Assembly (NCBI GenBank): GCA_039640495.1
Contig: CP046864.1
Span: forward strand, 2,046,001-2,110,000
Direction of reading: 5' to 3'
DNA from: Rhodobacteraceae bacterium IMCC1335
Lineage (GTDB): Bacteria; Pseudomonadota; Alphaproteobacteria; Rhodobacterales; Rhodobacteraceae
Length of the DNA stretch: 64,000 nucleotides
This document shows positions 1,508-35,960 of this stretch, one piece after another. Positions within the stretch are counted from its first letter, which is position 1; every line of letters starts with the position of its first letter. The notes beneath the pieces were generated by a model, which was given only the letters and a program-made list of their open reading frames with translations, searched no databases and was not told the DNA's origin. The position numbers and the translations under genes were made by a program.

Positions 1508-1605
1508 TCTTTCCACTGGACTTTTCTTGCTCTGCAAGCCTGTGTGTAGCTGCGCCCGAATACCGTCGGGCTCTACTCAGTGCGAGATGATGTACGGAGT
1601 AGAAC

Positions 1606-12939: not shown

Positions 12940-15900
12940 ATGAATATCACCATCGTATCTCGTTTGACCTCAAAGCAGACAACCTTTGATAAGGGCACAG
13001 ATCGGGTTTTTCTTGATGGCCCGTCAAAAGTTAATCTTGGTATAGATAGGTCCGACATTGCGTCTAGTGTTAGGGTTGGAGATGATCTTGTTGTGACCTT
13101 AACCAATGGCGAGCAGATCGTCGTTGAGGGGTTTTTCATCGCAGACGCATCTGGAGCCATTAGCGAGCTTGTCTTTGAGGGCTTAGTGGCGCCACTTGAA
13201 GGTGTGGCTGAGTCTGGACTTTTTGCAGCGGGGTTGGGCGTGCTTGCGGTTGGCGGGCTTGCAGGGAGTGGCGGAGCGACTGCTTCCTCGCCTGCCGATA
13301 CGGCGCTCGCTTTGATCGCGGCCTATGCAAACGACAACACGCAGCCTGCGCCGACGGTGCAGGACTATGCGGACGCGGGTGTGACCGGCGTGGATGCGGC
13401 CAACCTTAATGCGACCAATGCGGCCGTGGATGCGGTTGCAGCGGTTGATGCGGATACGGTGCCTGAGGTGCAGGCGCTTGCGACGGCGGCGAACACCCTT
13501 GCCGATACGGCGCTCGCTTTGATCGCGGCCTATGCAAACGACAACACGCAGCCTGCGCCGACGGTGCAGGACTATGCGGACGCGGGTGTGACCGGCGTGG
13601 ATGCGGCCAACCTTAATGCGACCAATGCGGCCGTGGATGCGGTTGCAGCGGTTGATGCGGATACGGTGCCTGAGGTGCAGGCGCTTGCGACGGCGGCGAA
13701 CACCCTTGCCGATACGGCGCTGGCGAAGATCACGGCCTATGCAAACGACAACACGCAGCCTGCGCCGACGGTGCAGGACTATGCGGACGCGGGTGTGACC
13801 GGCGTGGATGCGGCCAACCTTAATGCGACCAATGCGGCCGTGGATGCGGTTGCAGCGGTTGATGCGGATACGGTGCCTGAGGTGCAGGCGCTTGCGACGG
13901 CGGCGAACACCCTTGCCGATACGGCGCTGGCGAAGATCACGGCCTATGCAAACGACAACACGCAGCCTGCGCCGACGGTGCAGGACTATGCGGACGCGGG
14001 TGTGACCGGCGTGGATGCGGCCAACCTTAATGCGACCAATGCGGCCGTGGATGCGGTTGCAGCGGTTGATGCGGATACGATGCCTGAGGTGCAGGCGCTT
14101 GCGACGGCGGCGAACACCCTTGCCGATACGGCGCTGGCGAAGATCACGGCCTATGCAAACGACAACACGCAGCCTGCGCCGACGGTGCAGGACTATGCGG
14201 ACGCGGGTGTGACCGGCGTGGATGCGGCCAACCTTAATGCGACCAATGCGGCCGTGGATGCGGTTGCAGCGGTTGATGCGGATACGGTGCCTGAGGTGCA
14301 GGCGCTTGCGACGGCGGCGAACACCCTTGCCGATACGGCGCTCGCTTTGATCGCGGCCTATGCGGATAACAACACAAACCCAGCCCCAACAGAAGCGGAT
14401 TACGCCGCTGCGGGTGTGACCGGCGTGGATGCGGCCAACCTTAATGCGACCAATGCGGCCGTGGATGCGGTTGCAGCGGTTGATGCGGATACGGTGCCTG
14501 AGGTGCAGGCGCTTGCGACGGCGGCGAACACCCTTGCCGATATGGCGCTGGCGAAGATCACGGCCTATGCAAACGACAACACGCAGCCTGCGCCGACGGT
14601 GCAGGACTATGCGGACGCGGGTGTGACCGGCGTGGATGCGGCCAACCTTAATGCGACCAATGCGGCCGTGGATGCGGTTGCAGCGGTTGATGCGGATACG
14701 GTGCCTGAGGTGCAGGCGCTTGCGACGGCGGCGAACACCCTTGCCGATACGGCGCTGGCGAAGATCACGGCCTATGCAAACGACAACACGCAGCCTGCGC
14801 CGACGGTGCAGGACTATGCGGACGCGGGTGTGACCGGCGTGGATGCGGCCAACCTTAATGCGACCAATGCGGCCGTGGATGCGGTTGCAGCGGTTGATGC
14901 GGATACGGTGCCTGAGGTGCAGGCGCTTGCGACGGCGGCGAACACCCTTGCCGATACGGCGCTCGCTTTGATCACGGCCTATGCAAACGACAACACGCAG
15001 CCTGCGCCGACGGTGCAGGACTATGCGGACGCGGGTGTGACCGGCGTGGATGCGGCCAACCTTAATGCGACCAATGCGGCCGTGGATGCGGTTGCAGCGG
15101 TTGATGCGGATACGGTGCCTGAGGTGCAGGCGCTTGCGACGGCGGCGAACACCCTTGCCGATACGGCGCTCGCTTTGATCGCGGCCTATGCAAACGACAA
15201 CACGCAGCCTGCGCCGACGGTGCAGGACTATGCGGACGCGGGTGTGACCGGCGTGGATGCGGCCAACCTTAATGCGACCAATGCGGCCGTGGATGCGGTT
15301 GCAGCGGTTGATGCGGATACGGTGCCTGAGGTGCAGGCGCTTGCGACGGCGGCGAACACCCTTGCCGATACGGCGCTCGCTTTGATCGCGGCCTATGCAA
15401 ACGACAACACGCAGCCTGCGCCGACGGTGCAGGACTATGCGGACGCGGGTGTGACCGGCGTGGATGCGGCCAACCTTAATGCGACCAATGCGGCCGTGGA
15501 TGCGGTTGCAGCGGTTGATGCGGATACGGTGCCTGAGGTGCAGGCGCTTGCGACGGCGGCGAACACCCTTGCCGATACGGCGCTGGCGAAGATCACGGCC
15601 TATGCAAACGACAACACGCAGCCTGCGCCGACGGTGCAGGACTATGCGGACGCGGGTGTGACCGGCGTGGATGCGGCCAACCTTAATGCGACCAATGCGG
15701 CCGTGGATGCGGTTGCAGCGGTTGATGCGGATACGGTGCCTGAGGTGCAGGCGCTTGCGACGGCGGCGAACACCCTTGCCGATACGGCGCTCGCTTTGAT
15801 CGCGGCCTATGCAAACGACAACACGCAGCCTGCGCCGACGGTGCAGGACTATGCGGACGCGGGTGTGACCGGCGTGGATGCGGCCAACCTTAATGCGACC

Positions 15901-18900
15901 AATGCGGCCGTGGATGCGGTTGCAGCGGTTGATGCGGATACGGTGCCTGAGGTGCAGGCGCTTGCGACGGCGGCGAACACCCTTGCCGATACGGCGCTCG
16001 CTTTGATCGCGGCCTATGCAAACGACAACACGCAGCCTGCGCCGACGGTGCAGGACTATGCGGACGCGGGTGTGACCGGCGTGGATGCGGCCAACCTTAA
16101 TGCGACCAATGCGGCCGTGGATGCGGTTGCAGCGGTTGATGCGGATACGGTGCCTGAGGTGCAGGCGCTTGCGACGGCGGCGAACACCCTTGCCGATACG
16201 GCGCTCGCTTTGATCGCGGCCTATGCAAACGACAACACGCAGCCTGCGCCGACGGTGCAGGACTATGCGGACGCGGGTGTGACCGGCGTGGATGCGGCCA
16301 ACCTTAATGCGACCAATGCGGCCGTGGATGCGGTTGCAGCGGTTGATGCGGATACGGTGCCTGAGGTGCAGGCGCTTGCGACGGCGGCGAACACCCTTGC
16401 CGATACGGCGCTCGCTTTGATCGCGGCCTATGCAAACGACAACACGCAGCCTGCGCCGACGGTGCAGGACTATGCGGACGCGGGTGTGACCGGCGTGGAT
16501 GCGGCCAACCTTAATGCGACCAATGCGGCCGTGGATGCGGTTGCAGCGGTTGATGCGGATACGGTGCCTGAGGTGCAGGCGCTTGCGACGGCGGCGAACA
16601 CCCTTGCCGATACGGCGCTCGCTTTGATCGCGGCCTATGCAAACGACAACACGCAGCCTGCGCCGACGGTGCAGGACTATGCGGACGCGGGTGTGACCGG
16701 CGTGGATGCGGCCAACCTTAATGCGACCAATGCGGCCGTGGATGCGGTTGCAGCGGTTGATGCGGATACGGTGCCTGAGGTGCAGGCGCTTGCGACGGCG
16801 GCGAACACCCTTGCCGATACGGCGCTCGCTTTGATCGCGGCCTATGCAAACGACAACACGCAGCCTGCGCCGACGGTGCAGGACTATGCGGACGCGGGTG
16901 TGACCGGCGTGGATGCGGCCAACCTTAATGCGACCAATGCGGCCGTGGATGCGGTTGCAGCGGTTGATGCGGATACGGTGCCTGAGGTGCAGGCGCTTGC
17001 GACGGCGGCGAACACCCTTGCCGATACGGCGCTGGCGAAGATCACGGCCTATGCAAACGACAACACGCAGCCTGCGCCGACGGTGCAGGACTATGCGGAC
17101 GCGGGTGTGACCGGCGTGGATGCGGCCAACCTTAATGCGACCAATGCGGCCGTGGATGCGGTTGCAGCGGTTGATGCGGATACGGTGCCTGAGGTGCAGG
17201 CGCTTGCGACGGCGGCGAACACCCTTGCCGATACGGCGCTCGCTTTGATCGCGGCCTATGCAAACGACAACACGCAGCCTGCGCCGACGGTGCAGGACTA
17301 TGCGGACGCGGGTGTGACCGGCGTGGATGCGGCCAACCTTAATGCGACCAATGCGGCCGTGGATGCGGTTGCAGCGGTTGATGCGGATACGGTGCCTGAG
17401 GTGCAGGCGCTTGCGACGGCGGCGAACACCCTTGCCGATACGGCGCTCGCTTTGATCGCGGCCTATGCAAACGACAACACGCAGCCTGCGCCGACGGTGC
17501 AGGACTATGCGGACGCGGGTGTGACCGGCGTGGATGCGGCCAACCTTAATGCGACCAATGCGGCCGTGGATGCGGTTGCAGCGGTTGATGCGGATACGGT
17601 GCCTGAGGTGCAGGCGCTTGCGACGGCGGCGAACACCCTTGCCGATACGGCGCTGGCGAAGATCACGGCCTATGCAAAGGACAACACGCAGCCTGCGCCG
17701 ACGGTGCAGGACTATGCGGACGCGGGTGTGACCGGCGTGGATGCGGCCAACCTTAATGCGACCAATGCGGCCGTGGATGCGGTTGCAGCGGTTGATGCGG
17801 ATACGGTGCCTGAGGTGCAGGCGCTTGCGACGGCGGCGAACACCCTTGCCGATACGGCGCTCGCTTTGATCACGGCCTATGCAAACGACAACACGCAGCC
17901 TGCGCCGACGGTGCAGGACTATGCGGACGCGGGTGTGACCGGCGTGGATGCGGCCAACCTTAATGCGACCAATGCGGCCGTGGATGCGGTTGCAGCGGTT
18001 GATGCGGATACGGTGCCTGAGGTGCAGGCGCTTGCGACGGCGGCGAACACCCTTGCCGATACGGCGCTGGCGAAGATCACGGCCTATGCAAACGACAACA
18101 CGCAGCCTGCGCCGACGGTGCAGGACTATGCGGACGCGGGTGTGACCGGCGTGGATGCGGCCAACCTTAATGCGACCAATGCGGCCGTGGATGCGGTTGC
18201 AGCGGTTGATGCGGATACGGTGCCTGAGGTGCAGGCGCTTGCGACGGCGGCGAACACCCTTGCCGATACGGCGCTGGCGAAGATCACGGCCTATGCAAAC
18301 GACAACACGCAGCCTGCGCCGACGGTGCAGGACTATGCGGACGCGGGTGTGACCGGCGTGGATGCGGCCAACCTTAATGCGACCAATGCGGCCGTGGATG
18401 CGGTTGCAGCGGTTGATGCGGATACGGTGCCTGAGGTGCAGGCGCTTGCGACGGCGGCGAACACCCTTGCCGATACGGCGCTCGCTTTGATCACGGCCTA
18501 TGCAAACGACAACACGCAGCCTGCGCCGACGGTGCAGGACTATGCGGACGCGGGTGTGACCGGCGTGGATGCGGCCAACCTTAATGCGACCAATGCGGCC
18601 GTGGATGCGGTTGATGCGGATGATGCGGATACGGTGCCTGAGGTGCAGGCGCTTGCGACGGCGGCGAACACCCTTGCCGATACGGCGCTGGCGAAGATCA
18701 CGGCCTATGCAAACGACAACACGCAGCCTGCGCCGACGGTGCAGGACTATGCGGACGCGGGTGTGACCGGCGTGGATGCGGCCAACCTTAATGCGACCAA
18801 TGCGGCCGTGGATGCGGTTGATGCGGATGATGCGGATACGGTGCCTGAGGTGCAGGCGCTTGCGACGGCGGCGAACACCCTTGCCGATACGGCGCTCGCT

Positions 18901-20661
18901 TTGATCACGGCCTATGCAAACGACAACACGCAGCCTGCGCCGACGGTGCAGGACTATGCGGACTCGGGTGTGACCGGCGTGGATGCGGCCAACCTTAATG
19001 CGACCAATGCGGCCGTGGATGCGGTTGCAGCGGTTGATGCGGATACGGTGCCTGAGGTGCAGGCGCTTGCGACGGCGGCGAACACCCTTGCCGATACGGC
19101 GCTCGCTTTGATCGCGGCCTATGCAAACGACAACACGCAGCCTGCGCCGACGGTGCAGGACTATGCGGACGCGGGTGTGACCGGCGTGGATGCGGCCAAC
19201 CTTAATGCGACCAATGCGGCCGTGGATGCGGTTGCAGCGGTTGATGCGGATACGGTGCCTGAGGTGCAGGCGCTTGCGACGGCGGCGAACACCCTTGCCG
19301 ATACGGCGCTGGCGAAGATCACGGCCTATGCAAACGACAACACGCAGCCTGCGCCGACGGTGCAGGACTATGCGGACGCGGGTGTGACCGGCGTGGATGC
19401 GGCCAACCTTAATGCGACCAATGCGGCCGTGGATGCGGTTGCAGCGGTTGATGCGGATACGGTGCCTGAGGTGCAGGCGCTTGCGACGGCGGCGAACACC
19501 CTTGCCGATACGGCGCTGGCGAAGATCACGGCCTATGCAAAGGACAACACGCAGCCTGCGCCGACGGTGCAGGACTATGCGGACGCGGGTGTGACCGGCG
19601 TGGATGCGGCCAACCTTAATGCGACCAATGCGGCCGTGGATGCGGTTGCAGCGGTTGATGCGGATACGGTGCCTGAGGTGCAGGCGCTTGCGACGGCGGC
19701 GAACACCCTTGCCGATACGGCGCTGGCGAAGATCACGGCCTATGCAAAGGACAACACGCAGCCTGCGCCGACGGTGCAGGACTATGCGGACGCGGGTGTG
19801 ACCGGCGTGGATGCGGCCAACCTTAATGCGACCAATGCGGCCGTGGATGCGGTTGCAGCGGTTGATGCGGATACGGTGCCTGAGGTGCAGGCGCTTGCGA
19901 CGGCGGCGAACACCCTTGCCGATACGGCGCTGGCGAAGATCACGGCCTATGCAAACGACAACACGCAGCCTGCGCCGACGGTGCAGGACTATGCGGACGC
20001 GGGTGTGACCGGCGTGGATGCGGCCAACCTTAATGCGACCAATGCGGCCGTGGATGCGGTTGATGCGGATGATGCGGATACGGTGCCTGAGGTGCAGGCG
20101 CTTGCGGATGAAGTTCCCCCTGCCACGATTGATCTCTCCGGCACAGCCTTTGGAGGCCAGTTGATTGCGCCTGTGGAAGTGTTGATCAACGGAGAAGTGC
20201 GCACGTTTTACTTTTGGGATCGCAATGGAGATGGAGTGGGGAACGCTGCTTTGATTGGGGGCGTGACCGACTACACTACACACGTCGTGTTGGACGATCT
20301 GTTCAACGGTGGGGTGGATACAACGAATGCCGAAGCTACCCGATCCATCAATCTGGAGGACGGAACCACTTTGCGGCTACCTACTCTTGGCATGACACCA
20401 ACGATAGGAGATGTTGATTCGTTCGAAACCGTTGCCAGCCCAACCGAAAACCAGACTGTCCTTAACGACTTAGCGGCGATCAAGGATGCCTTTGACGGCA
20501 CTGGAACCCTCCCCGGCGTTCCTCCTGGCTGGGTGGCCAGCGCCTACTGGTCGGCGACGTCGACGGGCGCCGGGTCGCACGCGCTGCTGCTCTTGAACAA
20601 CGGCGCCTCGAGCAGCATTTCCGACGGCAACGACTACTTTGTCGCGCTGGAGGTCGTGTGA
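12940..20661 (+). CDS. Giant repeat adhesin, DGR target protein with variable lectin-like C-terminus
   Basis: A 2573-aa predicted surface protein. Residues 1-118 resemble the N-terminal prefix of Bap/BapA-type type I-secreted adhesins: VFLDGPSKVNLGIDRSDIAS, DLVVTLTNGEQIVVEGFF, then a Gly/Ala/Leu-rich segment near 95-112. Residues 119-2389 are 33 tandem 69-aa Ala/Asn/Asp/Val-rich repeats, probably helical, lacking RTX GGxGxD nonamers. Residues 2390-2573 form the tip. DRNGDGVG, DYTTHVVLDDLFNGG, a LRLPTLG segment and AYWSATSTGAGSHA follow the pattern of C-type-lectin/DUF1566-like domains used as DGR targets. The last 39 residues (2535-2573, ending FVALEVV) are the variable repeat. No Sec signal is seen, which fits export by the adjacent type I system. 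Start chosen at ATG 12940 with AAGGG upstream. Confidence 0.92.
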   Translation: MNITIVSRLTSKQTTFDKGTDRVFLDGPSKVNLGIDRSDIASSVRVGDDLVVTLTNGEQIVVEGFFIADASGAISELVFEGLVAPLEGVAESGLFAAGLGVLAVGGLAGSGGATASSPADTALALIAAYANDNTQPAPTVQDYADAGVTGVDAANLNATNAAVDAVAAVDADTVPEVQALATAANTLADTALALIAAYANDNTQPAPTVQDYADAGVTGVDAANLNATNAAVDAVAAVDADTVPEVQALATAANTLADTALAKITAYANDNTQPAPTVQDYADAGVTGVDAANLNATNAAVDAVAAVDADTVPEVQALATAANTLADTALAKITAYANDNTQPAPTVQDYADAGVTGVDAANLNATNAAVDAVAAVDADTMPEVQALATAANTLADTALAKITAYANDNTQPAPTVQDYADAGVTGVDAANLNATNAAVDAVAAVDADTVPEVQALATAANTLADTALALIAAYADNNTNPAPTEADYAAAGVTGVDAANLNATNAAVDAVAAVDADTVPEVQALATAANTLADMALAKITAYANDNTQPAPTVQDYADAGVTGVDAANLNATNAAVDAVAAVDADTVPEVQALATAANTLADTALAKITAYANDNTQPAPTVQDYADAGVTGVDAANLNATNAAVDAVAAVDADTVPEVQALATAANTLADTALALITAYANDNTQPAPTVQDYADAGVTGVDAANLNATNAAVDAVAAVDADTVPEVQALATAANTLADTALALIAAYANDNTQPAPTVQDYADAGVTGVDAANLNATNAAVDAVAAVDADTVPEVQALATAANTLADTALALIAAYANDNTQPAPTVQDYADAGVTGVDAANLNATNAAVDAVAAVDADTVPEVQALATAANTLADTALAKITAYANDNTQPAPTVQDYADAGVTGVDAANLNATNAAVDAVAAVDADTVPEVQALATAANTLADTALALIAAYANDNTQPAPTVQDYADAGVTGVDAANLNATNAAVDAVAAVDADTVPEVQALATAANTLADTALALIAAYANDNTQPAPTVQDYADAGVTGVDAANLNATNAAVDAVAAVDADTVPEVQALATAANTLADTALALIAAYANDNTQPAPTVQDYADAGVTGVDAANLNATNAAVDAVAAVDADTVPEVQALATAANTLADTALALIAAYANDNTQPAPTVQDYADAGVTGVDAANLNATNAAVDAVAAVDADTVPEVQALATAANTLADTALALIAAYANDNTQPAPTVQDYADAGVTGVDAANLNATNAAVDAVAAVDADTVPEVQALATAANTLADTALALIAAYANDNTQPAPTVQDYADAGVTGVDAANLNATNAAVDAVAAVDADTVPEVQALATAANTLADTALAKITAYANDNTQPAPTVQDYADAGVTGVDAANLNATNAAVDAVAAVDADTVPEVQALATAANTLADTALALIAAYANDNTQPAPTVQDYADAGVTGVDAANLNATNAAVDAVAAVDADTVPEVQALATAANTLADTALALIAAYANDNTQPAPTVQDYADAGVTGVDAANLNATNAAVDAVAAVDADTVPEVQALATAANTLADTALAKITAYAKDNTQPAPTVQDYADAGVTGVDAANLNATNAAVDAVAAVDADTVPEVQALATAANTLADTALALITAYANDNTQPAPTVQDYADAGVTGVDAANLNATNAAVDAVAAVDADTVPEVQALATAANTLADTALAKITAYANDNTQPAPTVQDYADAGVTGVDAANLNATNAAVDAVAAVDADTVPEVQALATAANTLADTALAKITAYANDNTQPAPTVQDYADAGVTGVDAANLNATNAAVDAVAAVDADTVPEVQALATAANTLADTALALITAYANDNTQPAPTVQDYADAGVTGVDAANLNATNAAVDAVDADDADTVPEVQALATAANTLADTALAKITAYANDNTQPAPTVQDYADAGVTGVDAANLNATNAAVDAVDADDADTVPEVQALATAANTLADTALALITAYANDNTQPAPTVQDYADSGVTGVDAANLNATNAAVDAVAAVDADTVPEVQALATAANTLADTALALIAAYANDNTQPAPTVQDYADAGVTGVDAANLNATNAAVDAVAAVDADTVPEVQALATAANTLADTALAKITAYANDNTQPAPTVQDYADAGVTGVDAANLNATNAAVDAVAAVDADTVPEVQALATAANTLADTALAKITAYAKDNTQPAPTVQDYADAGVTGVDAANLNATNAAVDAVAAVDADTVPEVQALATAANTLADTALAKITAYAKDNTQPAPTVQDYADAGVTGVDAANLNATNAAVDAVAAVDADTVPEVQALATAANTLADTALAKITAYANDNTQPAPTVQDYADAGVTGVDAANLNATNAAVDAVDADDADTVPEVQALADEVPPATIDLSGTAFGGQLIAPVEVLINGEVRTFYFWDRNGDGVGNAALIGGVTDYTTHVVLDDLFNGGVDTTNAEATRSINLEDGTTLRLPTLGMTPTIGDVDSFETVASPTENQTVLNDLAAIKDAFDGTGTLPGVPPGWVASAYWSATSTGAGSHALLLLNNGASSSISDGNDYFVALEVV
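13294..20106 (+). repeat. 33 tandem 207-bp coding repeats
   Basis: Unit boundaries fall exactly every 207 bp from 13294 to 19918 (32 whole units and a 33rd shortened one), with no indel in any unit. Units are nearly identical and differ by a few recurrent alternatives: LALIAA, LAKITA or LALITA at the start; NDN or KDN; and VAAVDAD or VDADDAD (units 26, 27 and 33). Unit 6 (14329-14535) has a diverged block, ADNNTNPAPTEADYAAAG, with different codons. The mosaic pattern points to recent expansion and gene conversion. Exact copy number could be affected by assembly. Confidence 0.96.
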
Positions 20662-20675
20662 GTTTGCCCCCGAGC
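20542..20675 (+). other. DGR variable repeat (VR)
   Basis: 134 nt aligned without gaps to the template repeat 501 bp downstream (21043-21176). The 15 differences all fall at TR adenines: the first base (A to G), three in one AAA codon, two each in two AAC codons and a second AAA, and singles elsewhere. The first 40 nt apart from base 1, and the last 35 nt, are identical. The identical 3' part (20641-20675) spans the stop codon and 14 nt beyond, and would serve as the initiation-of-mutagenic-homology region. Confidence 0.97.
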
Positions 20676-20697
20676 TTTTGCTTTTGAATTTTGTTCT

Positions 20698-20713
20698 GCG
20701 CGCTTTAGCGCGC
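20698..20713 (+). other. Small GC hairpin after the VR
   Basis: GCGCGC, loop TTTA, GCGCGC: a 6-bp stem with a 4-nt loop starting 22 bp after the VR ends. In the well-studied Bordetella phage DGR, a short GC-rich hairpin or cruciform just after the VR enhances retrohoming. This hairpin and the next are candidates for that role. Confidence 0.6.
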
Positions 20714-20744
20714 TTTCCCCTCGGCGTCTTGCGCCGAGGGGAAA
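20714..20744 (+). other. Strong 13-bp stem-loop after the VR
   Basis: TTTCCCCTCGGCG pairs perfectly with CGCCGAGGGGAAA across a 5-nt TCTTG loop. It abuts the small GC hairpin. No T-run follows on the + strand, so it is not a classical intrinsic terminator, although it may stop or stabilise the adhesin mRNA. A DNA cruciform guiding retrohoming is an alternative. Confidence 0.65.
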
Positions 20745-20772
20745 TTCCGTTGGTCATATTGTGCAGAATAGC

Positions 20773-20799
20773 TTGCAAGCAGGTCAGGGCGGTTATAAT
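20773..20799 (+). promoter_or_regulatory. Candidate promoter for the template-repeat RNA
   Basis: A perfect TATAAT at 20794-20799 preceded by TTGCAA at 20773-20778, spacing 15 bp (shorter than ideal). It would start an RNA near 20806 that runs through the TR on the strand required for A-directed mutagenesis. No protein gene is supported in the interval it would serve. Confidence 0.45.
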
Positions 20800-21042
20800 G
20801 CTTACATGGTGAGGCAGGCGTCTGCGCATCCCGCTGGTCATATTGGCTGGCACCTCATGGGTCTGTGGTTGCGGCTGCAAGAAAAAGGGGTCATTAGGGG
20901 ACGTTGCTGGCATCGCCCACGGGAGATATCTCGTTTTGGCATAAGTAGTCCGGTACGCGCCTTTGGCGTCTCTGGGCTGCAATTGGTTCGTTTAGGCGAG
21001 CCAAGAAGTGGCGATGCAAAGCTGTTGATCTGGGCGTCCAAG

Positions 21043-21176
21043 ACCTACTGGTCGGCGACGTCGACGGGCGCCGGGTCGCACGCGAAACTGAACTTGAACA
21101 ACGGCAACTCGAACAGCAAAACCGACGGCAACAACAACTATGTCGCGCTGGAGGTCGTGTGAGTTTGCCCCCGAGC
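21043..21176 (+). ncRNA. DGR template repeat (TR), RNA template for mutagenic cDNA
   Basis: The 134-nt template for the VR. The variable stretch (21085-21143) is rich in AAC codons (8) plus two AAA codons. AAC is the usual DGR design, since adenine changes in it cannot create a stop codon. The TR ends 24 bp before the stop of the opposite-strand reverse transcriptase, so a + strand TR RNA with a 3' extension would be antisense to the RT mRNA. A 133-aa frame from 20761 runs through the TR in the same phase as the adhesin. I regard it as a by-product or relic, not a gene. RNA ends are not defined. Confidence 0.93.
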
Positions 21177-21200
21177 AACGAAAAGGCGTCCGCGTCTGCC

Positions 21201-22472
21201 TCACACCCAATCCTTGGGAATGGTTGCCCGGTTGCGTTTCGGGTATATGCGCATCGAGGTATACTGGCCGTTTTTAGGTCGAAAATGACGCACGAGGAGT
21301 GCGAATTCCTTATCGTAGAACGTCTTGCGGATCTGGTAACTGTTCGTGTGTCGCAAGAGCCCATAATAGCTGTTCAGGGTCGCCAACATACGGTCAAGAA
21401 GCGCTCGCGTGGGTTGCCCGGTATCTTCGAAAGCAATGTTCTCGGAAAACCACAACCTCCAGTGGTCATCCATATGTGGAATGCGGCGGAAAGCGGCCCC
21501 GGCAGCCAGGACGTGGTTGAAATACGTCAAACGGCGTCGCAGCGCTTTCACAGTTTGGGTGCTTTTGTGACTGTGATAAGGGTAGAGGATATTTCCAACA
21601 AAGCGAATGCCCTGATCGTAGCGCTGAAGTCTCGTTTTTGCGGGGTTGAGCCGCACACGAAGTCGGTCGGTCAGGAATGCTTCGATATCCGCTTTATGCT
21701 GGGCGAGCGTTTCTCTGGTATCTGCCAGAAACACAATATCATCCATGTATCGGACGTATCCCGAAAGCCGCAACTCGTGTTTGACATATTGGTCAAGCTC
21801 ATTGAGATAGATGTTGGCAAAGAACTGGCTGGTGTGGCAGCCGATCGGCAAGCCGCATCCGGGTGCAGACCCATACAGAGATTTGTGGCAGGGAATAAGC
21901 TTCAGCAGGGTGGTATCGCCGCTTTTTCGCGGCGGCGGGTTCGTCGGGTCATGGGCAAGAATTGCCTTGATAGCAGACCAGAGAGTAGAGCGACGTCTGT
22001 CGCTCATGGGGCACCGTGCCAAATCACGCTCGAGTATGATTTGCAATACCGACTTGTTGATGCTTGGAAAAAAGGCATTGATATCAATTTGACAGTACCA
22101 AATATGATCCGGCTTGCGCAGCAACGTCTGGAGTTTTCTGCTGGCTGCGAGTGTACCCCGCTCCGGACGATTGGCATAGTTGTCATCGATAAAGCGTTTG
22201 TCCCACCAGGGTTCGAGCTGGCGCACAATCCAGTTATGGCAAATCCGGTCGGGAAGGGACGGTGCGAATATCTCTCTGGGTTTTGGATTGGGAACGACAA
22301 ACATTGTGTAGCGCCCAGGCGTATAGGATTCGGTCGCCAAAGTTTGCGCCAGAGGAATGATGATCTTGGGCAAATCGATCAGCGCACCATTTGTACTCAC
22401 AGTCTTGTTGATATCAGCCGCACTTCGAAAAAGCTCGGCGACAATATCCTGAAAATCGCAATCTGAGCCCAT
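21201..22472 (-). CDS. DGR reverse transcriptase
   Basis: A 423-aa RT that copies TR RNA into adenine-mutagenised cDNA. Order of motifs from the chosen start: YTPGRYTMFVVPNPKPREI (about 54-68), LPDRICHN, the DDNYANRPERGT motif, catalytic QIDINAFFPS (Asp130), LPIGCHTSQFFANIYL (about 209-224), which carries the GxxxSQ signature typical of DGR RTs, and YVRYMDDIVFL (YMDD about 242-245). No maturase domain is present. The ATG at 22472 has AGGA 9 nt upstream, whereas the longer start at 22514 has none and would overlap avd by 44 nt. The strand is opposite to VR, TR and avd, unlike the common DGR layout. Confidence 0.96.
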   Translation of the reverse strand: MGSDCDFQDIVAELFRSAADINKTVSTNGALIDLPKIIIPLAQTLATESYTPGRYTMFVVPNPKPREIFAPSLPDRICHNWIVRQLEPWWDKRFIDDNYANRPERGTLAASRKLQTLLRKPDHIWYCQIDINAFFPSINKSVLQIILERDLARCPMSDRRRSTLWSAIKAILAHDPTNPPPRKSGDTTLLKLIPCHKSLYGSAPGCGLPIGCHTSQFFANIYLNELDQYVKHELRLSGYVRYMDDIVFLADTRETLAQHKADIEAFLTDRLRVRLNPAKTRLQRYDQGIRFVGNILYPYHSHKSTQTVKALRRRLTYFNHVLAAGAAFRRIPHMDDHWRLWFSENIAFEDTGQPTRALLDRMLATLNSYYGLLRHTNSYQIRKTFYDKEFALLVRHFRPKNGQYTSMRIYPKRNRATIPKDWV

Positions 22473-22839
22473 GTACAAGCATCCTAAAATATTCAGTGAC
22501 GTGGTGGAAATCACAAAATTTTACTACGGTGTCCATGCGAATATGCCGCGCCCATTTAGAAACTCTTTTGGCGAAGGTATTTTAGACGAGTTATCAGCAA
22601 ATATGCGCTTGATTATTTTGGTGAACACAACCGATAAAGCCTCATTGACCGAGCGCACCGAAGCTTCACGCTTGTTGCGTGAAGTGCGGGCCCGCGTGGA
22701 GGTTCTTCGGGGTTTTCTCATAGCTGGATGGTCTTTGAAGACGATATCTCATAAGCACATTGGTGCGCTTACCATCCAGCTTGAAAGTATATCCAAGCAA
22801 GCGACAAAATGGCAAGGATGGTTCGAACGTGAGGTGTAA
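22471..22839 (+). CDS. avd: Avd-like DGR accessory protein (four-helix bundle)
   Basis: A 122-aa protein matching the Avd/four-helix family pattern. Helix 1 leads into MPRPFRNSFGEGILDEL (the FP+-x-R-x-xLG position). LLREVRARVEVLRGFLIAG and ISHKHIGALTIQLESI follow, and it ends in ATKWQGWFE, equivalent to the conserved GGW end of helix 4. Avd forms a pentamer that binds RT and TR RNA and is needed for cDNA synthesis in the Bordetella phage system. Its ATG shares CATG with the RT start on the other strand. The stop is 28 bp before the secretion operon, so avd looks co-transcribed with it. Confidence 0.85.
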   Translation: MYKHPKIFSDVVEITKFYYGVHANMPRPFRNSFGEGILDELSANMRLIILVNTTDKASLTERTEASRLLREVRARVEVLRGFLIAGWSLKTISHKHIGALTIQLESISKQATKWQGWFEREV

Positions 22840-22867
22840 TACACTTTTGCTTTGTAGGCGGCTGTAC

Positions 22868-24214
22868 GTGGCGCTGCGTATGCTTGGTTGCGTTGTCGTG
22901 CTCATGCCTATTCTTGGCTGTGAGACAGTCGTATTGCCGGATCCGCTTCAAGATGGGTCTGAGGTCTCTGTTCCTGAAGGCCGTGGTGAGGAAGCACAGT
23001 TGCGCACTAAATCCACCGCGCCGCGCCGCCCGTCTTCCGAGGTCAGCTTGGTTGGCGGCTCACGACTTGCCGATATTGCGGAGCGGCTTGACCAAGTCGC
23101 CATTACGCGATCATCTACCCTGCCCGAAGTGCAAGCGGCCCAAGCGCAATTGCGAGCGCTCAGGTTTGACAGATATCCACAGACACGCCCGACAGCCTCA
23201 GCCCCCTTGACTGGTGGGAGTGCGTCATTTGGGCTTAACATAGAGCAGCTTATCTGGGATGGTGGTCGTATTCGCGGGCGAATGACCGATGCTGAACTCA
23301 AAGTCGCTGAAGCCAGTTTGAGAGCGTGGGAAGAGCGAAACTCCACAGTCTACAACGGGCTAGAAACCTATGTGAATATCACGCGCTACGAGGCCCGTCT
23401 GAGGTCACTTGCAGGTCTCAAGGCGGATCTGGATACAATTTCAGCCCTCCTGCAAACGCGTATGGAGGGTGGAGTTGCAGACAGAGGCGAGCTACTGCGT
23501 GTGAACGCCGCCATAAATTCTGTGGAACGTAACTCCTTGGCCGATAGATCTGACCTGCGCCAAGCTCAAACCGACTTTTCCCGCTTAATGGCAGATACGC
23601 AAAATATGGGATCCTTGTCTGACCTTGGGTCTGCGACCAACCAATGTAGCAGATCATGGCCCGACACCGAGGCGCCTGCAGACGCCTTAGCCAGGATTTC
23701 CCTGGCACGTGCAGAGGTATCGGAGAATACTGTCCGTGCTCAACGCTTTCCTAAAGTTGTCCTTTCCGGTGGCACCACCTACTCCCAAGGGGGGTGGTCA
23801 GAGCCTGCCATTGGTATCCAGCTAGACGCCAGTAATATGCTGGGGCTTGGCCGCGGAGGCACTGTTGATGCCGCAAGCGCGACTACCCGTGCAGCCGAGG
23901 CGTCCTATACGTTGCAGAAGGATGAGACACAGGCTGACTTGGCTCGGTTGGAGGCCGACTTTGGTGGTCTACGAGCAGATGTCACCTCATTGCGTTCTCT
24001 CGCTCAACACGGCGAGGCCACGCTTGATCTTTATGAAGAACAGCTTTACGTTGGATCGATATCACTAACAGACGGTATTGTCTTACATCGCGAACGGGTG
24101 GATACACTCATCTCCCTCATAGATGCTGAGGCGGACATTCTTTTGAATTGTCTCCGATCTTCTCAGCGGCGCGGACTTTTGGCCCCATTCGGAGCTATTG
24201 ATGAAAGTAACTAA
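22868..24214 (+). CDS. TolC/LapE-like outer-membrane efflux lipoprotein
   Basis: A 448-aa outer-membrane channel for type I secretion. I chose GTG 22868 because it gives a lipoprotein signal (MALRMLGCVVVLMPILGC, Cys18 after the ILG lipobox); ATG 22880 is an alternative that loses the N-terminal Arg. The body has the two-repeat TolC layout: ADIAERLDQVAI and LNIEQLIWDGGRIRGR in the first half, and long helical stretches with QLYVGSISLTDGIVLHRER in the second. It starts 28 bp after avd and overlaps the exporter ATPase gene by 14 nt. Partner of the next two genes. Confidence 0.88.
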   Translation: MALRMLGCVVVLMPILGCETVVLPDPLQDGSEVSVPEGRGEEAQLRTKSTAPRRPSSEVSLVGGSRLADIAERLDQVAITRSSTLPEVQAAQAQLRALRFDRYPQTRPTASAPLTGGSASFGLNIEQLIWDGGRIRGRMTDAELKVAEASLRAWEERNSTVYNGLETYVNITRYEARLRSLAGLKADLDTISALLQTRMEGGVADRGELLRVNAAINSVERNSLADRSDLRQAQTDFSRLMADTQNMGSLSDLGSATNQCSRSWPDTEAPADALARISLARAEVSENTVRAQRFPKVVLSGGTTYSQGGWSEPAIGIQLDASNMLGLGRGGTVDAASATTRAAEASYTLQKDETQADLARLEADFGGLRADVTSLRSLAQHGEATLDLYEEQLYVGSISLTDGIVLHRERVDTLISLIDAEADILLNCLRSSQRRGLLAPFGAIDESN

Positions 24215-26354
24215 CACGAAGATCCCGAGCGTACAGGCAGGTGTTGAACCCAGCTTGCAAAAAGCGCTTTTGGCCCTGTTGAAAATACAGTCCGTTGACG
24301 TGGATGCAGAAGGCTTGATTGAGGGCCTGCCTCTCGTAGAGGGCGTATTATCTGAGAGCCTAATGGACCGCGCGTTACACCGCATAGGCTATGAAGCGGT
24401 TTGGATCGATCAGAAAAAAATATCCGATCTGGTCTACCCGTGCTGCATCACTGTCGCATCCAGCGGGTACCTTGTATTGCTGGGCAGGGACGGGGGCACC
24501 CTTCAAATTCTCGACCCAACGCAAGCCAAAGCCTATCGAAGTGCGCCGCTTGATGCGATCCAGAGCATATATGCCACGCGTGCCTTTCAGGTCTTGCCCA
24601 GCACCGACCTGCTTTTGGAAAAGCACTCAACTGTTAATGCAAAGAAGCATTGGTTTTGGGGCAGGCTCCTCCTTCAACGTAGAAGCCTTTTTGAGGTCAT
24701 CCTTGCGTCCTTGTTCGCAAATGTCCTTGCCGTAGTTACTTCACTGTTCGCATTACAGGTCTATGATCGGGTCATCCCCGGTCAGGCTGAAGCAACCCTT
24801 TGGGTGCTAGCAAGCGGTGTTGGTCTGGCTATTCTCTTTGAAGCCATACTTCGCGTCTCACGGGCTAGGCTAGTAGATCAGGTTGGAAAAGAGGCAGAAA
24901 TAGAGATCACCAGCGATATCTTCACCCGATTGGTTGGGATGAAACTCGACAAGCGTCCTGCCCCCCCCGGAACGATTGCCTACATGGCCCGGGAGTTTTC
25001 TGCTGTAAAAGAATTCTTCACCAACGCCGCAGTCGGGGTCGTGGCAGACCTTCCATTTGCGATCATATTCCTTTTGCTAATCTACGGTATTGCAGGGAAC
25101 GTCGTCTGGATTATCGTCTTGGGAGGGGTTCTTATTATTCTTCCCAACATTGCTGTTCAGGGTCAAATGGCACAGCTTTCCAAAGAGTCGCTGGGCGGTA
25201 TGTCGTCAGCATCCCGATTGCTGACCGAAGTATCCTATGGCCTTGAAGCGGTCAAAATTAACCGGTTTGAGTCTCAATTACAGCGACAATGGGAGGAGAT
25301 TATTGCCCTCAACGCAATCAAAACAACAGAGCAACGCTCCTTACGGGCATTTTTGACTTATTGGGCTACAGGCGTGCAACAAGCAACGTATGTATTTGCC
25401 GTTATTGCGTGCGTCTATATGGTTTTTGCTGGGGAGCTATCAACGGGAGCTATTATCGCCATCGGTATTTTGACCACCAGGACGCTTTCGCCAATATCGC
25501 AATTGTCACAAACCCTCTCAAGCTGGCAAAATATGAAGACAGCCCTTTCTGCTCTCGACGCAATTATGGCTTCTGATCAAGAACGCAGCCCAGAGAGGTC
25601 CTATATTAGACGCCCGAAGCTACAAGGACTGCTCACCTTGCAGAAAGTCAGGTTTGCACACCCTGGAACGAAGACGATGGCTCTGGATATTGGCCAGTTG
25701 CATATCAAAGCTGGAAAACGTCTGGCCCTGCTTGGGGCTAATGGGTCCGGGAAGTCAACGCTACTGCGTTTAGCCGCGGGCTTATATCAACCGTCAGAGG
25801 GCGAAATACTCATCGATGGAGTGGATATGCGTCAGGTCGATCCTGGTGACCTGCGGCGCAACATTGGATATCTGCCACAAGAAATACAGATGTTTAGGGG
25901 CAGTCTTAGAGAAAACCTTTCCTCTGGCACGCAGAAACGTTCTGATGAGGATCTTCTTGAAGCTCTCACCTTTGGTGGCTTGGGAGAATTTGTCAGACAC
26001 CACCCTGAAGGTCTTGACTTGCAAATTCCGGATGGAGGCGGAGGCTTGTCAATAGGTCAAAAACAAAGCATCGGACTTGCGCGTCTCTATCTGCAGGATC
26101 CTTCTATTATTTTACTTGATGAGCCGACGTCCGCACTGGACCAAAACCTTGAAAGCACGCTTGTTTCACGGATTGGGAAATGGATAGGTCCTCGAACCTG
26201 CATAGTTGCAACACATAGACCACATATCCTATCGGAAATGACACATGTAGCGGTTCTTCAACAAGGCCGATTATACCTTGAAGGCGAGCGTGACGATATC
26301 CTGAAGAAGCTAATGACACCTCCTCCGGCATTAAATGTGGCAGGTAAGACGTGA
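24201..26354 (+). CDS. LapB-like type I secretion ABC exporter
   Basis: A 717-aa inner-membrane ABC transporter that should energise export of the giant adhesin. About 1-125 is a C39-like domain without the catalytic Cys (substrate docking, no leader cleavage). Transmembrane helices span about 150-430 (RSLFEVILASLFANVLAVVT, YDRVIPGQAEATLWVLASG). The nucleotide-binding domain has Walker A GANGSGKST near 513, Q-loop YLPQEI, signature LSIGQKQ near 616 (variant of LSGGQ) and IILLDEPTSALD near 639. ATG 24201 is preferred over the adjacent TTG. A run of eight C bases at 24961-24968 falls inside the coding sequence. Confidence 0.93.
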   Translation: MKVTNTKIPSVQAGVEPSLQKALLALLKIQSVDVDAEGLIEGLPLVEGVLSESLMDRALHRIGYEAVWIDQKKISDLVYPCCITVASSGYLVLLGRDGGTLQILDPTQAKAYRSAPLDAIQSIYATRAFQVLPSTDLLLEKHSTVNAKKHWFWGRLLLQRRSLFEVILASLFANVLAVVTSLFALQVYDRVIPGQAEATLWVLASGVGLAILFEAILRVSRARLVDQVGKEAEIEITSDIFTRLVGMKLDKRPAPPGTIAYMAREFSAVKEFFTNAAVGVVADLPFAIIFLLLIYGIAGNVVWIIVLGGVLIILPNIAVQGQMAQLSKESLGGMSSASRLLTEVSYGLEAVKINRFESQLQRQWEEIIALNAIKTTEQRSLRAFLTYWATGVQQATYVFAVIACVYMVFAGELSTGAIIAIGILTTRTLSPISQLSQTLSSWQNMKTALSALDAIMASDQERSPERSYIRRPKLQGLLTLQKVRFAHPGTKTMALDIGQLHIKAGKRLALLGANGSGKSTLLRLAAGLYQPSEGEILIDGVDMRQVDPGDLRRNIGYLPQEIQMFRGSLRENLSSGTQKRSDEDLLEALTFGGLGEFVRHHPEGLDLQIPDGGGGLSIGQKQSIGLARLYLQDPSIILLDEPTSALDQNLESTLVSRIGKWIGPRTCIVATHRPHILSEMTHVAVLQQGRLYLEGERDDILKKLMTPPPALNVAGKT
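24961..24968 (+). repeat. C8 homopolymer in the exporter gene
   Basis: Eight consecutive C bases within codons for Ala-Pro-Pro (about residues 254-256), in frame in this sequence. Tracts of this kind can slip during replication and switch a gene off and on. Confidence 0.7.
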
Positions 26355-27532
26355 GGCTCGGGCGAAAAATAAATAGTCGTGTATCAGAAGGTAAGGCTAA
26401 AAAGAGCCGTCATAGGATCTGGCTGATTACTCTGATTGTTGCCGTCTTTGTGGTATGGTCTGCCTTTGCCCCACTCGATGAAATCGTGCGAGGTATTGGA
26501 AAAGTTGTTCCGACGATGAAAAATCAAGTCATCCAGAATCTGGAGGGCGGAATTTTTACCGAGTTGTTTGTGACGGAAGGCGACGTCGTTGAGGCTGGAC
26601 AACTCGTTGTGAAAATGGATGCGACGCGCTTTCAAAGTGCTTATCAGGAGTTACAGGATCAAAGTTGGGCCCTGATACTACGCCTGGCAAGGCTTCGCGC
26701 AGAAGGTGACTTATCAAACGACTTCATCCCCGACGAGGAGCTATTGCGGTTGGCTCCTGAGCATGCTGAATCTGAGGTTCAGCTTTTTCAAGCACGCCGT
26801 TCTGAGCTGCAGGCTAAGATGCGGGATCTACAGGAAGCCATTGATTTGAAGACGCAAGAGGTCGACATAATGCGGCCGATGGTAGAACGGTCTGCCGTGC
26901 CACAAATCGATCTCGTTCGAGCGGAGCAGGCCGCGGTCGATGTGAGGAGCCGCTTGTCGGCGACACAGAATGAGTTTGAAACCGCGCGGTCGCAAGAGTA
27001 TTCGGAAGTTCTGGGAAACCTGCGTCGGACAGCAGAGCAAGCCCGTAGCCGTGAAGATCAGTTATTCCGAACTGATGTGCGATCTCCTATTCGCGGAATC
27101 GTAAATAAAGTTCTCGCGACAACAATTGGCGGTGTCGCTCAACCCGGCGATCCTTTGTTGGAAGTCATCTCCCTCGAGGATAACCTCAGAGTAGAAGGAC
27201 GTATCAATCCGCGTGACATTGGCTTTGTCTATGTTGGGATGCCCGCGACGATCAAGCTCACGGCTTTTGACTTCTCCATCTATGGAACGCTTAAAGGGCG
27301 TGTCATCCACGTTGGCGCTGACACAGTAACCGATGAACAACAAAGAGAGCCACGTCCTTATTACGAGGTCTTTATCCAGCTTAAGGCCACAGTATTGGAG
27401 GGTCCTTCTGGCCAAGTCGAAATCCGACCTGGTATGCAGGCACAAATCGAACTTGATTCTGGTCAAAAGACGGTCTTACAATTCATTTTGAAACCATTGT
27501 TCAAAACGACAGAGGCTCTGTCAGAGCGTTGA
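26351..27532 (+). CDS. HlyD/LapC-like membrane fusion protein of type I secretion
   Basis: A 393-aa periplasmic adaptor linking the ABC exporter to the outer-membrane channel. It has a short cytoplasmic N-terminus, one transmembrane helix (about 23-42, IWLITLIVAVFVVWSAFAPL), a biotinyl-lipoyl segment (QVIQNLEGGIFTELFVTEGD, VEAGQLVVKMD), long coiled-coil hairpin (about 95-225), a second lipoyl half (RSPIRGIVNKVLATTIGGV) and a C-terminal RPYYEVFIQL/ GMQAQIEL region typical of HlyD. The GTG start overlaps the exporter stop (GTGA). Last gene of the avd-secretion operon. Confidence 0.94.
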   Translation: MRLGRKINSRVSEGKAKKSRHRIWLITLIVAVFVVWSAFAPLDEIVRGIGKVVPTMKNQVIQNLEGGIFTELFVTEGDVVEAGQLVVKMDATRFQSAYQELQDQSWALILRLARLRAEGDLSNDFIPDEELLRLAPEHAESEVQLFQARRSELQAKMRDLQEAIDLKTQEVDIMRPMVERSAVPQIDLVRAEQAAVDVRSRLSATQNEFETARSQEYSEVLGNLRRTAEQARSREDQLFRTDVRSPIRGIVNKVLATTIGGVAQPGDPLLEVISLEDNLRVEGRINPRDIGFVYVGMPATIKLTAFDFSIYGTLKGRVIHVGADTVTDEQQREPRPYYEVFIQLKATVLEGPSGQVEIRPGMQAQIELDSGQKTVLQFILKPLFKTTEALSER

Positions 27533-27853
27533 AACGAGAGGTGGCCGCAGGATTTTTGACCTCACACGTCCTGGAGCGCGTCGAGGTTGACGAATATACG
27601 TAAGCGGTGTCTGGGGATCACGTTGATTCCAGGTTGTGAGAACGGCAATGCAAAAGTGAGCCACGGAAGTGGCGAATAGCTACATCGAGTGAACCTATGT
27701 CGTTCCACCTCTTGGACACATCTTGTCACACATTTGGTCCACATTGGCACACATTAAGGGATAGGTCGTGTATTGACAGACAACTTTACTGATGTGACTA
27801 ATATTTCAAGCGGTTTAAAAGTTCTGAAAATTCATTTTACTAGGATAATAGAT
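27533..27853. other. Noncoding gap between adaptor and cyclase genes
   Basis: About 320 bp. Its main content is one copy of an 82-bp direct repeat (27698-27779) that recurs beyond the cyclase gene. TTGACAG at the repeat's 3' edge could serve as a -35 box for the cyclase, but I see no convincing -10 at the right distance. No gene is supported. Confidence 0.5.
27698..27779 (+). repeat. 82-bp direct repeat, copy 1 (left of cyclase)
   Basis: Matches 29975-30056 with 4 mismatches by hand alignment. It contains TGTCACACATTTGGTCCACA and ends in TTGACAG. The two copies flank the cyclase gene exactly, so the gene sits on a 2.3 kb unit bounded by direct repeats. Confidence 0.88.
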
Positions 27854-29806: not shown

Positions 29807-30128
29807 CATCGCATTACATCTTATCATCTTAGTATCGCCTTTCTGGAGCCGAAACTTCTAGGAATTAAATTTGGAAGAAGGAGAAGACTTCCCTAATTAA
29901 AATCAAATTTTGTACCAAATTTTTTTTGCAGTGGGCCGTAGCGTTTACATAAATGAAATACTCTCTGGTTTTTCTGTCGTCCCACCTCTTGGACACATCT
30001 TGTCACACATTTGGTCCACATTGGCACACATCAAGAGATAGGTCGTGTGTTGACAGGCTGTCCTCACCGTGTGAATCTATATGCAGGAATTGACGTAAGT
30101 GTCTGACAATGAATACGAAGCGAATTAG
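29807..30128. other. Noncoding gap after the cyclase
   Basis: AT-rich sequence followed by the second 82-bp repeat (29975-30056) and about 70 bp of unassigned sequence leading into a tRNA-Leu-like fragment. No gene or clear terminator seen. Confidence 0.45.
29975..30056 (+). repeat. 82-bp direct repeat, copy 2 (right of cyclase)
   Basis: Second copy of the repeat at 27698-27779. The direct orientation means recombination between copies would delete the cyclase gene. Confidence 0.88.
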
Positions 30129-33376: not shown

Positions 33377-33475
33377 TCTTTCCACTGGACTTTTCTTGCT
33401 CTGCAAGCCTGTGTGTAGCTGCGCCCGAATACCGTCGGGCTCTGCTCAGTACGAGATGATTGTACGGAGTAGAAC

Positions 33476-33871
33476 ATGAGACTCGATTTAGATGGTTTGG
33501 CTGATGCCTCGCGCGAGGCGTTAATGTCAGAATGGCGAAAGTTGGTTGGTCGCCCTCCTCCGAAGCACTTAAGTCGGCCCCTGATGGTGCAGATCCTCAG
33601 TCATACCTATCAGCTGGATACTATGGGCGGATATACAAAGCGTTTGGATAGTCGCCTCAAGAGTGCAGCGAGGCGCGATGTTGTGCGCCCTGCCTTTAAA
33701 CCCGGAAGCCGCTTTGTGCGCGAGTATCATGGGATCACCCATGTGGTTGAGGTTGGTGATGACGGGCGCTTTATGTGGAGCGAGCAGAGCTTTAAGTCCC
33801 TCTCTCATACAGCACGCGCTATTACTGGCTATAATGTCTCGGGCTATCAGTTCTTTGGGGTACGCCCATGA
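33476..33871 (+). CDS. DUF2924 family protein (second copy)
   Basis: A 131-aa paralogue of the protein at 1606-2001, with the same length and C-terminal SGYQFFGVRP. Differences are scattered (for example WRKLVGR and RLKSAARRDVVRP). The stop overlaps the next start by ATGA. Function unknown; consistently paired with the serine recombinase. Confidence 0.85.
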   Translation: MRLDLDGLADASREALMSEWRKLVGRPPPKHLSRPLMVQILSHTYQLDTMGGYTKRLDSRLKSAARRDVVRPAFKPGSRFVREYHGITHVVEVGDDGRFMWSEQSFKSLSHTARAITGYNVSGYQFFGVRP

Positions 33872-35475: not shown

Positions 35476-35593
35476 ATTCCCTGTTACTGACAATTAATTT
35501 CCCTGTTATTTTTTGAGGTCAGTTTTATAATATCCCAATAAACATTGGGTTTTTCATTACATTTTCGCGTTTCAAAACATCAAAAAAAGTAAA

Positions 35594-35629
35594 ATTCCCT
35601 GTTAAATTCCCTGTTAAATTCCCTGTTAA
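35594..35629 (+). repeat. Three tandem 12-bp iterons (copy 2)
   Basis: ATTCCCTGTTAA three times, identical to the array at 3724-3759 and at the same distance from the recombinase stop. Confidence 0.75.
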
Positions 35630-35803
35630 TACCGAAAAACAGGGAAAAACCCACCCTCGCAAAATCACAGGCTGAGGTTTAGTGAAAATTATCGCTGATA
35701 TAAGAGGTGATGTGGGGCATCAGTCGCAAAGCGCTGTTGTAAATCCCTGATCTTGCGCAGGAATAGTGCCAAAAATAACAACAACAGGAATGAGCAGAAT
35801 GTG

Positions 35804-35818
35804 GTGGCGGAGGAGGTG
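35804..35818 (+). other. attL core (15-bp tRNA-Ser 3' repeat)
   Basis: Perfect copy of the tRNA-Ser 3' end (acceptor strand, discriminator, CCA and one flanking base). It directly abuts the end of serine-recombinase module 2. The next bases differ from the tRNA copy, which fixes the repeat length. Confidence 0.75.
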
Positions 35819-35937
35819 TCCGTATAAGTTATGTTCCAAAGAATTACAAAAAACTTCAATAAACGTTATTTTATTGAATATATGCTATTAACAATACCCT
35901 AACTGTTCCATAGAATATGATTGTGTTCCAGTAAATT

Positions 35938-35960
35938 TGTGGGGGCGACTGTGGGGGCGA
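35938..35960 (+). promoter_or_regulatory. Left pair of arm-type repeats
   Basis: TGTGGGGGCGA occurs at 35938-35948 and 35950-35960, ending just before the integrase ATG. The same tandem pair, with one base changed in its second unit, is near the right end at 42838-42860. Paired direct repeats inside both att sites are the usual form of integrase arm-binding sites. Here they also overlap the integrase ribosome-binding region, so autoregulation is possible. Confidence 0.55.

Follow-up and report, generated by a model that had tools for sequence, protein, structure and literature searches.

The locus examined here raises the question of how a diversity-generating retroelement (DGR) can work when its reverse transcriptase (RT) gene is read antisense to the template it copies. 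It belongs to Rhodobacteraceae bacterium IMCC1335 and lies in the 64,000-nt stretch of DNA that was analysed (the window; contig CP046864.1, positions 2,046,001 to 2,110,000; coordinates below are those of the window), beside genes for a giant adhesin and a type I secretion system. The favoured reading, held at a probability of about 0.65, is that of an inverted DGR predicted to rewrite the tip of a BapA-type adhesin from a template RNA whose core likely lies 5′ of the template repeat (TR). The TR (21043-21176, plus strand) and the variable repeat (VR; 20542-20675, plus strand), the latter comprising the final 39 codons of the adhesin gene, its stop codon and 14 nt more, aligned without gaps over 134 nt. 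They differed at 15 sites, and 15/15 were TR adenines; adenine makes up 34 of the 134 TR bases, and random placement would put all 15 differences on it with P = 6.8e-11. A sequence-only reading of the window had already described two ungapped 134-nt copies differing only at TR adenines, and the computed alignment bore this out, with no difference at any other TR base. Starting from the next base gives a 133-nt pair with 14/14 differences at adenines. A repeat search extended it to 147 nt (87%), but the additional 13 nt were left out because three of their four differences fell at other bases. Ten VR codons are changed relative to the TR, which contains eight AAC codons; 20 of its 39 codons include an adenine, allowing for ∼1e18 possible proteins. 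Used as a query against the whole 3.74-Mb genome, the TR matched itself and one VR, the four further matches having E values of 0.26 or worse. Two hairpins follow the VR (20698-20744, plus strand), 22 and 38 nt past it, the first with a 6-bp stem and a TTTA loop, the second with a 13-bp stem and a TCTTG loop. A post-VR hairpin was present in 9/9 inverted loci inspected (the VR ends of loci L192 and L197 being set by eye for this check); the loop in phage DGRs is GRNA, according to passages of PMC3240598, whereas that of the window is TTTA.

The RT gene (21201-22472, minus strand; start codon taken from the sequence reading) encodes the YMDD and IGCHTSQ motifs that had been noted from the letters alone. 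Its product matched Pfam RVT_1 (E 2.4e-18) and PHROG 1423 (E 9.8e-86), and its top PDB sequence match was 8ub7 (E 2e-27), which we take to be the enzyme of phage BPP-1. The adjacent gene (22471-22839, plus strand) had been called Avd-like; its 122-aa product matched PHROG 3206, 'Avd protein of DGR' (E 2.8e-10), in agreement with that call, although it scored 24.4 bits against NCBIfam DivGenRetAVD (cut-off 80) and matched no Pfam family. The two genes are divergent, their start codons sharing the CATG at 22470-22473. These results support a complete DGR with intact-looking parts. The earlier assignment to the four-part Bordetella-phage scheme holds as far as the parts are concerned, all of them being present and apparently intact, but not for their layout: the RT is antisense to the TR and divergent from Avd, and the strand opposition between the RT on one side and the TR, VR and Avd on the other had been overlooked. 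BPP-1 (NC_005357) and the window have in common an adenine-directed TR/VR pair, an RT, an Avd and a post-VR hairpin (passages of PMC12875486 and PMC3240598). In BPP-1, avd, TR and RT lie on one strand and the key RNA follows the TR; in the window the TR and RT do not share a strand, and a conserved core precedes the TR.

This layout is that of an inverted DGR, a rare type already published in 2012. Passages of PMC3521204 describe Group 4 of Schillinger et al. 2012 (Shewanella baltica OS155 pSbal02, Vibrio sp. RC586 and Photobacterium angustum S14), in which, as in the window, the RT is on one strand and the TR, VR and target on the other; according to passages of a 2019 survey, standard cassettes outnumber RT-inverted ones by a factor of >20 (PMC6642488). 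The window differs from these published cases in its class within Pseudomonadota and in its target, a BapA-type adhesin by a type I operon rather than an immunoglobulin (Ig)-like protein by an OmpA-like gene; the Group 4 account in the passages of PMC3521204 describes no RNA structure. An accepted TR/VR pair was obtained for 57 of 97 loci around relatives of the RT: 48 had the TR and RT on the same strand, seven (the window among them) had the TR antisense at the 3′ side of the RT, and two had it antisense at the 5′ side. The 40 loci lacking an accepted pair were excluded before these counts, as were 45 RT loci of viral contigs and L199-L202; the loci drawn on include 7 of 27 plasmid matches and 1 of the 19 phage-record matches listed. 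In a 40-row RT tree the 13 RTs labelled inverted formed a single group (support 100/100), with the RT of S. baltica pSbal02 (L193) inside it. Candidates for further inverted DGRs are the contigs of P0009 and P0010 (RT 76-77% identical). The scripted search gave no TR/VR pair for L142, L145, L192 and L198; the TRs of L192 and L198 were located by sequence match, behind an IS30 insertion, and that of L145 by alignment. No recognisable TR adjoined the RT in L144 and L146. Inverted DGRs of the Vibrio/Shewanella type also carry a 163-aa gene between VR and TR (L101, 10981-11472; L102, 759-1250), annotated as hypothetical and with no counterpart in the window, which might encode another accessory protein.

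The segment that precedes the TR contains a conserved RNA core (20877-21021, plus strand), recovered at 41.7 bits (E 8.2e-9) by a covariance model trained on four other loci, the window being excluded. When run on 68 further sources, the model returned the four training loci plus L198, a near-copy of one of them, and nothing else below E 0.05; it had no match in the same-strand loci supplied or in BPP-1. The core includes a helix, P2, formed by GCATCGCC (20910-20917, plus strand) and GGCGATGC (21010-21017, plus strand), which ends 25 nt ahead of the TR. P2 paired at 8/8 positions in six representative loci and at 7/7 in L145. In a plain MAFFT alignment of five loci, in which the L197 arm is split by a gap, 92.1% of the cells were paired and 10 cells were changed on both sides, a number reached in 0/500 shuffles; the covariation score was likewise reached in 0/500, and versions of the helix slid along the alignment paired in 26-58%. 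By these measures the core helix covaries. The lone Rfam match with an E value of up to 1 was rnk_leader (20715-20761, minus strand), rejected at 22.3 bits against a cut-off of 50.

A second pair of complementary arms brackets the TR. The upstream arm of this predicted RNA helix, P1, lies at 20809-20821 and the downstream arm at 21192-21204 (both plus strand), the latter 16-28 nt past the TR and overlapping the stop codon of the oppositely oriented RT gene; the 13-bp pairing was equalled in 1/200 shuffles. Seven representatives were compared (the window, L007, L192, L145, L197, L101 and L102, which include Aeromonas and Yersinia hibernica loci). In windows set by position, arms from the same locus scored a mean of 31.1 and foreign ones 18.0 (maximum 25.5); the own partner ranked first in 6/7 rows, and 2/20000 permutations were as high. 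Counting negatively before the TR and positively past it, the upstream arm of the inverted clade lies at about -150 to -220 and its partner begins 15-18 nt past the TR, the downstream arm being near the TR end (about +5 to +35) in 7/7 representatives. This far-arm helix was found at ≤1/200 shuffles in six of the seven inverted loci, versus 3/47 same-strand loci at ≤2/200 (Fisher 2.2e-5) and 5/47 at ≤10/200. Same-strand DGRs instead often had an arm adjacent to the TR, starting at -10 to -25, that pairs with RNA after the TR at +13 to +164 (20/46 loci at ≤10/200 shuffles, 13/46 at ≤2/200); the flank was long enough in 46 (near-arm) and 47 (far-arm) of the 48 loci. The window has no such BPP-1-type arm, 71/200 shuffles being as good, and its absence is common, since it was seen in just 20/46 same-strand loci. 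In BPP-1 itself, the same stem method, run without a shuffle control, gave a best stem of 16 bp, with an arm from -71 to -55 pairing with +64, while an 8-bp AGGGCAGG arm at -19 paired with +62. Selection by eye was used for the P2 arms, for the motifs defining the windows in the P1 partner test and for an interrupted P1 in L007; the far-arm shuffle test, the plain-alignment test of P2 and the covariance-model search involved no such choice of arms.

The conserved 5′ segment bears on an alternative: an ordinary inverted DGR might use RNA located 3′ of the TR, here antisense to the final part of the RT gene, in the way that the spacer serves BPP-1. P1 and the 5′ core would then have another function, e.g. 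regulating transcription in the interval from the adhesin to the Avd-secretion genes. In BPP-1 it is RNA 3′ of the TR that recruits RT-Avd and supplies the priming adenine (passages of PMC12875486), and across the seven inverted loci the mean folding z-score fell to -0.9 to -1.4 at 260-380 nt past the TR. Fold energies alone give the 5′ side no advantage. Against the alternative, the mean z was only -0.4 to +0.3 in the first 200 nt past the TR, where the sliding windows revealed no structured block (a weak signal appeared elsewhere), the downstream arm of P1 stays close to the TR end in every representative, and the 5′ core is kept between RTs just 45-50% identical. We consider this 3′ alternative unlikely, though it is the one that takes the largest share of the remaining probability. 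A different explanation, that P1 is a DNA inverted repeat left by inversion or movement of the cassette and has no RNA role, draws on the mobility of the latter, which occurs on plasmids and in the window has recombinase and integrase genes nearby. The arms, however, differ wholly in sequence between groups while their positions remain constant, and P1 is therefore unlike old terminal repeats, whose sequences would not change while their places stayed; several arms include G-U pairs, and P2 covaries independently. A DNA repeat of this kind appears very improbable.

The favoured reading, a template RNA with its core at the 5′ side, suggests the following sequence of events. The plus-strand transcript would fold so that P1 brings the TR end beside the 5′ core, to which RT and Avd would bind; cDNA would be primed from the core and extended across the TR, with errors opposite adenines, and would then replace the VR. 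The type I system would export the resulting adhesin, its N-terminus remaining anchored, so that an altered lectin-like tip would be displayed at the far end of a 33-repeat stalk. RNA binding, priming, direction and activity in this genome are steps that we infer. The simplest account of a weakly folded 3′ side and a conserved, covarying 5′ side would be that the core stands on the other side of the TR and the helix joining TR end and core was retained, giving a permuted template RNA with the outline of a retron. The likeness to retrons is one of outline (a closing helix, then a folded part, then the template; passages of PMC8867640): the window RT groups with DGR RTs in the tree and not with the retron family, scoring 47.5 bits against a retron St85 model with a cut-off of 235, and in place of multicopy single-stranded DNA the window has an adenine-directed VR. 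Whether inverted DGRs in general form a branch of their own in mechanism, in which the template RNA is permuted and retron-like, RT-Avd binds and primes at a 5′ core, a long-range helix returns the TR end to that core, and members are coupled to type I secretion, seems to us evenly balanced. Priming from a 5′ core would leave the RT gene at liberty to run antisense to the template it copies, explaining the opposite strands of the two. Knowledge of how DGR enzymes recognise and prime their RNA comes largely from a single phage system, in which the decisive RNA follows the TR; a natural permutation, if real, would mean that the essential feature is the helix joining the TR end to the core, on either side, and would offer a compact, testable RNA for diversification tools. 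The inverted kind of DGR is already known; neither a permuted RNA nor a clear tie to a type I adhesin was met in the literature searched, and an RNA core before the TR was not found in a DGR search that did not target this exact idea and left most subscription papers outside.

Adhesins of the BapA/LapA/SiiE type have a BapA prefix domain, long tandem repeats, and genes for an LssB-type ATP-binding cassette (ABC) protein, an HlyD-type adaptor and a TolC-like protein. The target gene of the window (12940-20661, plus strand) encodes 2573 aa with this organisation: the BapA prefix domain occupies residues 2-81 (Pfam BapA_N, E 1.9e-17; NCBIfam biofilm_BapA_N, E 1.3e-15; both above cut-offs) and is followed by a repeat stalk (13293-20106, plus strand) of 32.9 copies of a 207-bp (69-aa) unit with 98% matches (Tandem Repeats Finder). 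It differs from that type in carrying a DGR-variable tip at its extreme C-terminus (20107-20658, plus strand), with the VR at residues 2535-2573. No RTX family was found in the adhesin in the Pfam or NCBIfam scans. Downstream of Avd lie genes for a TolC-like outer membrane protein (22760-24214, plus strand; Pfam OEP, E 9.5e-25; likely start at 22880, with a lipobox-like leader read by eye), an LssB-type type I secretion ABC protein (24198-26354, plus strand; TIGR03375, E 6.6e-213, above cut-off) and an HlyD-type adaptor (26351-27532, plus strand; TIGR01843, E 6.5e-91, above cut-off). Their position suggests that this system is likely to export the adhesin. The tip is predicted to have a C-type-lectin-like fold: an AlphaFold2 model from a five-row alignment had a predicted local distance difference test score (pLDDT) of 41, and a 34-row alignment yielded a usable model. 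A PDB profile search with the five-row alignment gave 11 matches, all to Cadherin-3 (best E 0.023, profile positions 711-819); the tip alone matched just DUF1344 in Pfam (E 0.022), and the Aeromonas tip described below matched Lcl_C (E 0.0017, below cut-off). The tip domain recurs, in some cases in tandem, in giant proteins with cadherin, VCBS or RTX-type repeats (P0002-P0007, P0128-P0196). A 2366-codon open frame antisense to the stalk (13183-20283, minus strand) is most likely a side effect of a GC-rich unit being repeated. Ahead of the adhesin, 9158-11827 encodes an 889-aa histidine-kinase-like protein (family matches below cut-offs) that might regulate it.

A giant adhesin has been proposed as a DGR target before: passages of PMC6642488 report a LapA-like protein of Pseudomonas costantinii with multiple VRs, termed atypical for its few A-to-N and many other substitutions, whereas in the window 15/15 substitutions are at adenines. 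We suspect that the P. costantinii 'VRs' are that adhesin's own repeats. No literature pairing a DGR with BapA was found, and among the matches listed this paper was the only one to join a DGR and a giant adhesin. A link between targeted hypermutation and type I secreted adhesins would provide bacteria with a predicted route to vary what they stick to; if true, a bacterial adhesin alters its tip as a phage alters its tail fibre.

Several observations weigh against the favoured reading. The seven inverted loci include near-copies, and L007 fails the P1 tests (111/200 shuffles as good, own partner ranked 4/7), although an interrupted helix is readable at the corresponding place. The near arm occurs in 1/7 inverted loci (L101) versus 20/46 same-strand loci, a difference that is not significant (Fisher 0.22). 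Foreign P2 arms sometimes pair fully (L102 with L101; L007 with L145), and the counts of double-change pairs and of pair types in P2 did not exceed those of shuffles (22/500 and 274/500, respectively). The covariance model fails to detect the cores of the Vibrio/Shewanella loci, which seem to have diverged. In 160-nt windows, the mean z was -1.09 before and -0.45 after the TR for nine antisense loci, and -0.95 and -1.22 for 46 same-strand loci; fold energy is not taken as proof, since these windows did not separate the groups. A Foldseek search with the tip model gave no strong match, and the signs of activity within the window are limited to the adenine-only differences. Lastly, the position of dnaA (227-1576) and the turn of the GC skew (20 sampled stretches) from mostly positive to mostly negative, if irregularly, near 1.87-1.93 Mb suggest that the window (2.05-2.11 Mb) is replicated leftward, so the VR likely runs counter to replication; passages of PMC12875486 report that the BPP-1 system in E. 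coli favours the opposite orientation, while orientation was not critical in the phage itself (passages of PMC3240598).

Judged from sequence comparisons, the locus is an import, since a search of 60 related genomes gave two weak matches to its RT and no good one, and its ABC protein has only distant relatives in six (matches of ≤38% identity in the two of the same genus, and none at E 1e-80 in the other four). An import might be a relic, intact in sequence, silent in this strain and with its single VR fixed. The lack of RT matches, which suggests a lone arrival, the counter-directional VR and the fact that this VR is known from one strain fit that idea. The RT and Avd genes, the core, P1 and P2, and the hairpins past the VR appear undamaged, however, and since no difference falls outside adenines neither TR nor VR has drifted; a silent relic is thus a distinctly doubtful explanation, albeit less so than the DNA repeat considered above. 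The adhesin-DGR-secretion segment may be mobile. It is flanked by direct copies (1508-3939 and 33377-35810; 89% alike) of a 2.4-kb element, both of which contain three AAATTCCCTGTT repeats and a gene resembling those of serine recombinases; a first interpretation of these repeats as an insertion sequence was dropped in favour of serine-recombinase modules. Beyond them lie an integrase-like gene of the P4 type (35937-37178) and a tRNA-Ser gene (42914-43003); the tRNA-Ser stretch was partly matched at two more places in the genome, with 86% over 49 and 83% over 40. Neither the adhesin nor the recombinase element had a match when searched against plasmid DNA.

The DGR had been described from its sequence as active or recently so. 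For this genome the claim is better put as a possibility: what speaks for it is the adenine-only differences and the analogy with two Aeromonas caviae plasmids. Their TR regions are identical over 305 nt and the 500 nt past the VR are identical, while the VRs differ. Relative to the TR, one VR carries a 3-nt insertion and 16 differences, 15 of them at adenines and one at an edge base; in the second VR 17/21 differences are at adenines, the non-adenine sites being an edge base and three within four bases. The annotation of the second plasmid gives a short RT, which suggests that its VR variant either dates from earlier or was generated in trans. The target on the first plasmid is a 4021-aa Ig-like protein whose tip is 31% identical to that of the window; TolC, ABC and HlyD genes follow from 7 kb past the target start, the ABC protein being 34% identical to that of the window. 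This genome is therefore not alone in linking an inverted DGR to a type I adhesin.

Two minor observations were made. In L140 (genome G754), a near-copy of L101, the TR differs at 18/113 sites, 14 of them L101 adenines, while the flanks differ at 26/365; mutated cDNA may have been copied back over the template from which it came. In the window, an 82-bp direct repeat (27698-27779 and 29975-30056; 95% alike) brackets an adenylate-cyclase-like gene (27773-29806).

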